Positions 11,139 to 37,354 of a DNA stretch of 64,000 nucleotides are shown piece after piece (position 1 is the stretch's first letter; every line of letters starts with the position of its first letter). Source of the stretch: Kineosporiaceae bacterium SCSIO 59966 (GTDB taxonomy: Bacteria > Actinomycetota > Actinomycetes > Actinomycetales > SCSIO-59966); assembly GCA_020881835.1 (NCBI GenBank), contig CP052876.1, forward strand, positions 1,612,001 to 1,676,000, in the 5' to 3' direction. The notes beneath the pieces are model-generated. The model was given only the letters and a program-made list of their open reading frames with translations. It was not told the DNA's origin and did not search any database. Position numbers and translations under genes: made by a program.

Positions 11139-11256
11139 GCTCCAGAGTCGCCTCGCCCGCACGGTCCGGGCGCCTGAGAGGTTCCGGGGAGTTTGCCCCT
11201 TCGGCGCCCCGTCGCCGGCCCGGGGCCGGTCGCGGGGACTCTCCCGCGCGGGGTCT
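11139..11256 (-). ncRNA. Glycine riboswitch (single aptamer visible)
   Basis: On the minus strand the gcvP leader contains GCGGGAGAGTCCCCGCG, then GGCGCCGAAGGGGCAA, then CCTCTCAGGC and finally GACTCTGGAG, in the order and spacing of the glycine aptamer consensus. Only one full aptamer is apparent before the gcvP ribosome binding site. Edges are approximate to about 10 bases. It very probably controls gcvP in response to glycine. Confidence 0.88.
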
Positions 11257-32432: not shown

Positions 32433-32661
32433 CTGTCTTGAGTTTGTGACCCTGTTGGAACTCCCGCTTCGCCACGCTCTACCTGCCCCGCTGGGTGTCG
32501 ATCACTGGTGAGCAGGCGCGAACGAAGTGCCGGGCACTCGGGATGCGATCGAATGACATCGACACCATCGCGGGCGCCGCATCATGGGAAAGGAGGGCTT
32601 CGCGACTGCTGAGCCTTCCGACGAGGAGTAGGTGCTGTTCATCACCGGCGCAACACTCGCC
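32433..32661. other. Gap between helicase and IS1634-type element
   Basis: Contains the displaced 3' end of the HTH gene on the minus strand (stop TGA at 32642-32644). The remaining 200 bp have a plus-strand frame reading FATLYLPRWVSITGEQ that I cannot assign and that lacks a convincing start. No hairpin terminator is evident after the helicase. Confidence 0.5.
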
Positions 32662-32725
32662 TGATCGTCGACTCGCTCACTCCGTACATCTCCATCAGAT
32701 CGCGACGGGTCGCCCCGTCATCGAA
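32662..32725. repeat. 64-bp target-site duplication, left copy
   Basis: Identical to 34414-34477. Both copies begin TGATCGTCGACTCGCTCAC and end CCCCGTCATCGAA and directly abut the IS1634-type element ends. Very long target duplications are a known trait of the IS1634/IS1549 group. Confidence 0.92.
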
Positions 32726-34413
32726 CCTGACTCGTGCCGATTTAGTGTGTCGGCCACTTGACACCTACAGCGTCGATGATCGTGCGGGCGGTGTCGGTGA
32801 GGGGGTCGCTGGCGGGATGTTCGTGTCCGGCGATGTTGACGGTGATCTGCTGCAGCGGGCGTAACGCCTGGATGATCTTCTTGAGGCTCATCCCGGTCGT
32901 GTTCTGCAGGTGACGGGCGACGGCGAGGGCGGCCATGACGACAGTGAGGTGGGCCTCGATCGCGTCGCGGTCGTGGTGGAACACCGGACGGGCCCGTAGG
33001 TCGCTCTTGCTCATGCGGAACGAGGCCTCGACCTGCCACAACGAGTGGTAGGAGTCGATGACCTCACTGGCCGCCATGAGCGTGGCGGGCACGTTGGTGA
33101 TGTAGCCCTTCAACCCGACGAGCCGGCGGGCGCGGTCCAGGGCCGCCTGGTCGAGACTGACTGCGCCGTTCGCCGTCGTGACGAACCGGGGTGTGCGGGC
33201 GGCCTTCTCCCCGGAGACCACTGCCCTGGCCCTGTTCTCCTGCGCGGTGAGGGTCCTGCCGTCGCGGGCGGCTCGCTTGCTGGAGTACGACCACACTGCC
33301 CGCCACGACCGCTCGTGCACGGCCGGGTCCCACACGGGTTCGGCGCGCTTGGTGGTGTCGTTGCTGCTGCGGGCGGTGCCGGTGGACAAGCGTGGGGTGA
33401 TCGTGTCGATGACCTGCCCATCGGTGAACGCGTCCCCGTGCCAGCGGAAGTGGGAGGCCAGGTCGACCGGCGCCTTGGTGACCCGCGAGCCGACGATGAA
33501 CCGCAGGTTCGCCTCGTCCAGTTCCCGCAGGTTCGCCGCCGACAGCATCCCCGCGTCGGCGACGACGACCATGTCCGCGACCTGGTGGCGGGCCTGGAAC
33601 TGCTGGATGATCGGCAGGATCGTGGTCGTCTCGGCCTTGTTGCCCTGAAAGCAGCCGACCTCGAGCGGGAACCCGGCCCGGTCCACGAGCAGCCCAACGA
33701 CGATCTGCGGGTCCACGCGGCGTTCCTTGGAGTACCCGACCCGCCGCAGGTCGTCCTCCTTCTCAGCCTCGAAGTACAAGGTGGTGACGTCGTACAGCAC
33801 CAGCGACAGATCACCGTGGACACTGGCGTGCTCGAAGCACGCCCTGGCGATCTGGTCCCGGTACCCACGCTCCTGGCAGCGGGCCAGCGACCGGAACATC
33901 GTGCGCAGCGAGGCGTGAGCGACCCCCAGCTCGTCCAGGACACGCACAGAGTCGGCCTTGCTGGTCGGCTCGACCAGCCGGGCCAGCACCAGCTGCTTGA
34001 ACGCCTCGTCCCCGAGCGCGTCGAACCCCAACCGCGCGTACGTGCTGACCAGGACGTGCCACAGCAGGGCACTGGACCGGCTGGTGATGACCGCCTGACC
34101 AGCGGGCACCGACCCACCGCTGAGGTCCAGTTCGCCCTGACCCGGGCGGATCTTGCGGCGGGCGACCTCCAGCAGCGCCGTCAGCTCCTGCGCCGTGCGC
34201 GCCGACCCCACGTGCTCCAGCACCCGGTCACGCCCGCCCGCCCGCTCAGCGATCTGCACCGCCGTCGCCCCCGACCCCGTCCGCACCTTCCGAACGAACA
34301 CCACCCGGCGACACTACCCACCGATTAGTGTGTCGCAGCCCCCCTACTCAACCCTCTGACCAGCAGCGATCCCCCCGCACCCACCAGATCCCGGAGAAGT
34401 GGCACGAGTCAGG
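32726..34413 (-). mobile_element. IS1634-family insertion sequence
   Basis: 1688 bp with 13-bp terminal inverted repeats CCTGACTCGTGCC at 32726 and, as complement, ending at 34413. It encodes one transposase. It interrupts an HTH protein gene a few codons before its stop and is flanked by an exact 64-bp duplication of the target, so the insertion is recent and unrearranged. Confidence 0.92.
32742..34304 (-). CDS. IS1634-family transposase
   Basis: A 520-aa DDE transposase of the IS1634 group (IS4-like superfamily). Marks: LSLVLYDVTTLYFEAEKEDD (first Asp), VVVADAGMLSAANLREL (second Asp) and YHSLWQVEASFRMSKSDL, the Y(2)R(3)E(6)K signature with the catalytic Glu. The GTG at 34304 (or the next GTG) gives the N-terminus FVRKVRTGSGATAVQIAE. 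Full length, no internal break. Confidence 0.93.
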   Translation of the reverse strand: MVFVRKVRTGSGATAVQIAERAGGRDRVLEHVGSARTAQELTALLEVARRKIRPGQGELDLSGGSVPAGQAVITSRSSALLWHVLVSTYARLGFDALGDEAFKQLVLARLVEPTSKADSVRVLDELGVAHASLRTMFRSLARCQERGYRDQIARACFEHASVHGDLSLVLYDVTTLYFEAEKEDDLRRVGYSKERRVDPQIVVGLLVDRAGFPLEVGCFQGNKAETTTILPIIQQFQARHQVADMVVVADAGMLSAANLRELDEANLRFIVGSRVTKAPVDLASHFRWHGDAFTDGQVIDTITPRLSTGTARSSNDTTKRAEPVWDPAVHERSWRAVWSYSSKRAARDGRTLTAQENRARAVVSGEKAARTPRFVTTANGAVSLDQAALDRARRLVGLKGYITNVPATLMAASEVIDSYHSLWQVEASFRMSKSDLRARPVFHHDRDAIEAHLTVVMAALAVARHLQNTTGMSLKKIIQALRPLQQITVNIAGHEHPASDPLTDTARTIIDAVGVKWPTH

Positions 34414-34840
34414 TGATCGTCGACTCGCTCACTCCGTACATCTCCATCAGATCGCGACGGGTCGCCCCGTCATCGAACAGGCGTCGCGCCTCTGCCTTCT
34501 GTTCCTCGCTGAGGGCTGCACGCTTCGCCTTGACAGTGAGGTCGAACCCTGCGCGGCGGAGCGTGTCGCGGACGGTGTTGCGTCGCACGTTGTACCGCTC
34601 GGCAAGCTCGTACGTCGAGGCGCCGGCCTCGTAGTCCTCGATCAGGAGCTTGACGACTGACCTGTGAAGGGCGTTCTGCTGGGGGAGCGGGCGGTTGTCG
34701 ACCTCTCGTGTCGACTCGCGCGCCGTGGTCAGGAGTTCGGCCAGTTCCGCGGTTTTCCGGGCTTGTTGGCAGTAGTTTCGCAGCAGCCCGACGTTGTGGC
34801 GTGAGGTCCCCGCCTGCCCCGCTCCCCCTTCCCACGTCAT
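34409..34840 (-). pseudogene. Double helix-turn-helix protein, 3' end split off by IS1634-type insertion
   Basis: Small DNA-binding protein of the kind found beside serine recombinases in actinobacteria. It carries LAELLTTARESTREVDNRP, one HTH (GASTYELAERYNVRRNTVRD) and a second (GATRRDLMEMYGVSESTI). The insertion cuts after the second HTH. Joining 34414 to the left flank restores ...STIRRVLRR and a TGA at 32642-32644, so only about six residues are displaced; in the present form the frame ends STIT. The protein may still work. The start is uncertain: ATG 34840 or 34882, the latter inside the der hairpin. It could be a recombination directionality or regulatory partner of the lost recombinase (inference). 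Confidence 0.7.
34414..34477. repeat. 64-bp target-site duplication, right copy
   Basis: Exact partner of 32662-32725; here it still belongs to the reading frame of the HTH gene, encoding the segment up to GVSESTI. Confidence 0.92.
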
Positions 34841-34896
34841 GCGGCCTGGACGTGGCTGCGACCCCCGCCGAAGGCACCTCAAGGCCGCATGACGTG
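34833..34896. terminator. Hairpin downstream of der
   Basis: CACGTCATGCGGCCT (34833-34847) and AGGCCGCATGACGTG (34882-34896) form a perfect 15-bp stem around a 34-base loop that itself has some pairing. It lies 6 bases after the der stop (34903, minus strand), so it should terminate the der operon and marks the likely right limit of the island. Confidence 0.7.
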
Positions 34897-37055: not shown

Positions 37056-37146
37056 GTGCGACTCCTCGACGGTTCGGTGGGGGCTGTGCCGAGCCTAGTG
37101 GAGTACGCCCGCACCCCCCGCCCTTCGGCCTCCACCCCCCTCCCTC

Positions 37147-37334
37147 GTGATCATGCAATCCCGCCACCCTCGCCCCGCCCCCTCCCCTCGTGATCATGCA
37201 ATCCCGCCACCCTCGTGAGGCGTGGTGCAGCTGTTCCACCAGCACAGGCAAGGGTGGCGGGATTGCATGATCACCGAAGGGGAGTATCCACGATCACCGA
37301 AGGGGCGCTGGGGGTGGCGGGATTGCATGATCAC
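37147..37334. repeat. 22-bp repeat cluster 2 (two left-facing, two right-facing)
   Basis: Left-facing copies at 37147-37168 and 37190-37211, right-facing at 37253-37274 and 37313-37334, so the whole cluster is an inverted repeat about a centre near 37232. The centre holds a small hairpin (TGGTG/CACCA) instead of the 62-bp element. Degenerate units with a TGATC core and CCCC/GGGG runs lie between and after. The 299-bp gap from 37056 to 37354 holds nothing else recognisable. Confidence 0.9.
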
Positions 37335-37354
37335 CAATAGGGGTGTTCGAGCGA

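Follow-up and report, generated by a model that had tools for sequence, protein, structure and literature searches.

Exact 5-bp and long target duplications made by the same insertion sequence of the IS1634 family

We found that an insertion sequence (IS) of the IS1634 family in Kineosporiaceae bacterium SCSIO 59966 makes 5-bp as well as long target duplications. Across this element and its relatives, long insertions were asymmetric: one junction was TCNGA-like, whereas the other was unlike it and carried G at the second flank base. Sequential strand transfer is our best reading of the long insertions, and we regard this inferred mechanism as somewhat probable. The copy that we started from lies in a stretch of 64,000 nucleotides, hereafter the window, and has the following features.

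32642-32661, minus strand: cut-off 3' end of the target gene, RRVLRR plus stop in the uninterrupted allele
32662-32725, no strand: left copy of the 64-bp target duplication, bounded on the right by the TCNGA-like junction at 32725/32726 (outward TTCGA)
32726-34413, minus strand: IS1634-family insertion sequence, 1688 bp
32726-32738, plus strand: terminal inverted repeat CCTGACTCGTGCC
32742-34304, minus strand: transposase, 520 aa, frame intact (NF033559, 398 bits, and Pfam DDE_Tnp_1)
34401-34413, plus strand: second terminal inverted repeat GGCACGAGTCAGG
34414-34477, no strand: right copy of the 64-bp target duplication; 34413/34414 is the opposite junction (outward TGATC, G at the second base)
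34409-34882, minus strand: target gene for a two-HTH protein (HTH_23 and others), start codon uncertain, now ending ...SESTIT

The first-pass annotation had described an IS1634-type element with 13-bp inverted ends between identical 64-bp repeats, and each part of that description was confirmed. Direct reading and a repeat search both returned the element at these positions, its perfect 13-bp ends and the 64 identical bases on either side; a 65th matching base (C at 32726/34478) is the first base of the element itself. An exact 64-bp repeat directly adjoining both element ends is not a chance finding. The transposase scored 398.3 bits against the NCBIfam model NF033559 (IS1634 family transposase; residues 25-516 of 520), for which the cut-off is 100 bits. 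Elsewhere in the window, we observed short repeats, direct as well as inverted, that cluster around GTGATCATGCAATCCCGCCACCC (37117-37351), downstream of which lie genes that, by the look of their frames, we take to be of the cmk/der type. A glycine riboswitch aptamer above the Rfam gathering score was found on the minus strand at 11152-11256.

Other characteristics were compared with those of the family. The length of the element falls inside the family range of 1500-2000 bp. Of the catalytic DDE triad, one D was conserved in 116 of 117 aligned proteins, and the other D and the E in all of them. The family signature is YREK, usually without its R (PMC2266710); Y and K were present in all 117 aligned proteins, and the R position is occupied by L in the window protein. 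When the end pattern C-----YT was compared with CCTGACTC, C at position 1 and T at position 7 fitted and C at position 8 did not, T being found there in many relatives. The repeats departed from the 5-6 bp AT-rich form usual in the family, at 64 bp for the window copy and at 5 bp with the sequence TCNGA for the short class in our survey. Such a repeat is not required for membership, given the two long-repeat members of the family, and the trait of that subgroup, long direct repeats specific to each copy, was found at four copies in this one genome (64, 128, 365 and 165 bp). The element is a new member of a known family.

The element inserted into the last codons of the HTH gene, duplicating 64 bp of the target. 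In the present allele, the HTH frame runs to a TGA stop within the element's own end. Removal of the element and one repeat by script restored a frame ending ...SESTIRRVLRR, in agreement with the first-pass annotation, and the rejoined sequence matched an intact locus of a relative, G028, in one unbroken alignment (469 bp, 84% identity). There the 64 bp are present once, and the end of the homologue, ...SESTIRRVLRPRR, matches the restored one. The search for an uninterrupted locus covered 149 genomes including the window's own, and G028 was the only relative with a match. An empty site in relatives had been put forward as a check, and a 64-bp repeat present there without the IS as grounds for rejection; the empty site was found and held a single copy, which shows that the insertion created the repeat. 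The window also contains a 28-nt inverted repeat with an 8-nt loop (34833-34896), close to the 5' part of this HTH frame; the core of the inverted repeat is unique within the window.

Comparing duplication lengths at other copies of the same IS had been suggested as a further check, and the genome of the window provided it. Three full copies were found beyond the window copy, with repeats of 128, 365 and 5 bp (the last reading CCTCA); the copy with 128 bp had landed within an earlier copy of the element. A further, split copy had an outer repeat of 165 bp (166 counting the common end base). Near-identical elements within one genome have therefore produced very different repeats, each with its own sequence, as expected of target duplication. 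In the split copy (L010:3862-7113, G000:C1:1267001-1278000), the interruption spans about 3.25 kb and holds three reading frames in succession; the same 18 bp of the IS occur on either side of it. These frames have the look of integrases or tyrosine recombinases and are, we presume, reminiscent of recombinase-in-trio elements.

We surveyed insertions of related elements using a scan of genome contigs (80 loci), whole-genome searches, plasmids (20 loci taken from 60 matches listed) and one viral contig. From 317 transposase places, 281 were near full length and 177 distinct insertions were retained. Retained insertions had ends near CCTGA...TCAGG, an inverted-repeat score of at least 7, an element of 1550-1900 bp, at least 30 bp of flank per side and no N at the junctions; duplicates of one insertion were merged. 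The repeat was exactly 5 bp in 34 insertions, 17-738 bp in 97 and 8 bp in one, and 45 had no usable repeat (41 with none and four with 3 bp). None of the 177 distinct insertions had a repeat of 4, 6, 7 or 9-16 bp. Six of the 97 long repeats were detected only by gapped search and were omitted from junction statistics, leaving 91. The lengths of long repeats were broadly and roughly log-normally distributed, and a fit to the 91 exactly called ones (median 81) expects only about two in the range 6-16 bp; the striking feature is thus the separate sharp peak at 5 bp. No helical phasing of repeat lengths was seen (R at most 0.07 at periods 10-11). Long repeats were free of mismatches in 83 of 91 cases. 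Long repeats extended to distant relatives whose ends are of the same type (33 bp in Persicobacter, 680 bp in Aliarcobacter).

Empty sites were sought for seven insertions (window, L213, L208, L212, L216, L072 and L248). None was found for L208, L212, L216, L072 or L248; the window copy and L213 each gave one, both in single copy. L213, on a plasmid of Rhodococcus sp. AH-ZY2, has a 147-bp repeat that occurs only once in the homologous plasmid of Rhodococcus sp. p52, where the slightly diverged flanks overlap by 144 bp. On a Corynebacterium faecale plasmid (L219:1-6497), two direct copies of IS1634-family transposase surround a TetR-type regulator and two SMR-type transporters, an arrangement like that of a composite transposon.

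Both length classes were present together in seven further genomes: G028 (96 and 5 bp), G932 (184, 23, 58, 32, 222 and 5 bp), G913 (17, 182, 83, 130 and 5 bp), G1076 (20, 607 and 5 bp), G1005 (55, 41 and 5 bp), G1181 (81, 43, 122, 75, 181 and 5 bp) and G1111 (115, 30 and 5 bp). In some of them, the copies belong to two or more transposase clusters. A tree of transposases, built from the 168 of 177 insertions with a frame of at least 430 aa, comprised 118 clusters, and single clusters carried both 5-bp and long labels. Two clades (support 1.0 and 0.998) held 13 5-bp insertions and no long ones. A transposase segment of about 19 residues, missing from these two clades, was considered as a determinant of the mode and rejected: it was absent from all seven clusters with 5-bp repeats only and present in 64 of 68 long-making clusters, with four long-makers lacking it. 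In G913 (L240, C1:2863000-2876500), two IS copies with repeats of 5 and 17 bp have 2,212 identical bp in common in their outer flanks, perhaps a larger duplication that the pair carries.

The two classes differed in their junctions. The 5-bp repeats had the consensus TCNGA, with C and G each at 0.85 and T and A at 0.72 (n = 34). For long insertions, we scored the first five flank bases of each end against TCNGA. The scores of the two ends were anticorrelated (Spearman -0.46, n = 91, p = 4e-6), both in the first set (n = 58, -0.44, p = 6e-4) and in 33 insertions collected later (-0.49, p = 0.0035). On average, the better end scored 2.49 of 4 and the worse end 0.87, with a background of 1.00. 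At the worse end, the second flank base was G in 59 of 79 cases (matched null 0.41 +/- 0.06) and in 25 of 28 of the new set. In a test independent of end labels, 68 of 91 insertions had G at this base at one end only, four had it at both and 19 at neither (Fisher p = 3e-7). Sites of 5-bp insertions outscored even the better end of long insertions (3.15 vs 2.49, p = 7e-5), and a similar result came from the 15 5-bp insertions whose proteins were at least 55% identical to the query (3.07, p = 0.007).

Some of the copies without a usable repeat could be accounted for. L254 and L257 (G1076:C1, about 331 kb and 497 kb) are inverted copies on the two sides of dnaA and the origin, and their flanks have been swapped: each left flank finds its repeat in the right flank of the partner copy (159 and 318 bp), the outcome that recombination between copies would give. 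Such a swap implies that about 165 kb spanning the origin has been inverted. At L212 the repeat is split by an IS3 element, and L248 adjoins another repeated sequence. L279 and L280 have the first six right-flank bases in common, and their ends may have been miscalled; several other repeat-less copies have short flanks. These cases make up only a minority of the 45, and target deletions may therefore be among the rest.

In sequential strand transfer, the transposase would bind a TCNGA-like target and join one IS end to one strand. At a good site, the other end would join the opposite strand 5 nt away in a concerted manner, which would give the 5-bp repeat. At a poorer site, the second joining would be uncoupled: tens to hundreds of nucleotides off, the other end would attack the opposite strand at a site with a weak motif of its own (G at the second flank base). 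A polymerase extending the free 3' ends would copy the whole interval and leave one long repeat per side. Synthesis and strand displacement from the first nick, were they to precede the second joining, would explain why the outcome is a duplication. The order of joining, the role of synthesis and the reason for a duplication are what we infer from the two kinds of junction and the two length classes. More tentatively, and at slightly less than even odds, we propose that a large subgroup of the IS1634 family has two discrete modes: a good palindromic TCNGA would lead to 5 bp, and a weaker one to ends joined 17-740 bp apart, with host synthesis making the repeat.

The main rival to sequential transfer is a single concerted complex with a very wide and variable stagger, for example on unwound DNA, followed by gap repair and involving no sequential step. 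It yields an identical end product and fits the broad, roughly log-normal lengths, but on its own predicts neither one TCNGA-like and one unlike junction nor a separate sharp 5-bp class of the same element, and we consider it rather unlikely. Less probable again is a joining of the ends to both sister DNAs behind a replication fork but at unequal positions, so that one product would gain a duplication and the other suffer a deletion. A distant IS1634-family transposase, that of Acidiphilium, binds the sliding clamp (PMC4549789), and one of the origin-based tests was biased, with the fork running from the good to the bad end in 8 of 30 cases (p = 0.016; 9 of 31 in the other test). Tests based on GC skew, however, leaned the opposite way (n = 47, p = 0.05; n = 64, p = 0.09). 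Sister joining also predicts about as many deletions as duplications, but the 45 repeat-less insertions, partly explained otherwise, compare with 97 long ones. Elements were co-directional with the fork in 26 of 37 long and 12 of 20 5-bp insertions, a bias that is suggestive only. A simple pattern search revealed no clear beta-clamp motif among the 32 transposase C-termini inspected, and the link to replication thus rests on the distant family member. A role of replication in long-repeat insertion is plausible given that clamp binding, but the direction tests disagree.

Two nearby 5-bp insertions in sister DNAs, followed by recombination between the IS copies, are a very improbable source of long repeats: the exchange between L254 and L257 demonstrates that copies do recombine, but this route predicts TCNGA at both junctions, where one good and one background-level end were seen, and needs two close events each time, yet long repeats are the commoner class. 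No support was found for an older tandem duplication, later entered by the element, as the origin of the 64-bp repeat, and this reading can practically be dismissed, given the single copy in G028, the different repeats of other copies and the identity of the repeat copies here and in most long cases.

If true, the two-mode reading would account for the long repeats known from IS1549 and IS1634. The survey makes an old question testable, as it distinguishes two discrete modes with unlike junction rules and points to genomes where a single element uses both. Repeat finders set for 5-6 bp will overlook most insertions of this subgroup. Long repeats should also favour precise loss of copies by recombination.

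Long repeats in the IS1634 family were already known, as the first-pass annotation had noted for IS1634 and IS1549: the family norm is 5-6 bp, with these two as exceptions at 8-514 bp, and the 2008 review, in the part available, states that the variable long repeats had been given no mechanistic model (PMC2266710). We found no report of the two-mode pattern or of unlike junctions in the titles and abstract openings of the open-access literature searched. The TCNGA short sites are unlike the AT-rich 5-6 bp repeats given for the family as a whole (PMC2266710). Other members by transposase have short repeats or sites, as reported in the available parts of the sources: 6 bp for ISPfe2 (PMC3281130) and ISGka5 (PMC8024623) and six-letter site sequences for Acidiphilium IS1634-1 (PMC4549789). 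Insertions of restriction-modification genes (Nobusato et al. 2000, as cited in the accessible text of PMC3031569) likewise make long variable target duplications but have no IS1634-family transposase. The closest likeness is to IS1549 of Mycobacterium smegmatis and IS1634 of Mycoplasma mycoides, which belong to the same family and make long variable direct repeats on insertion; their accounts in the available part of PMC2266710 mention neither an exact 5-bp class of the same element nor unlike junctions, and the element in the window is a different one, in a different host.
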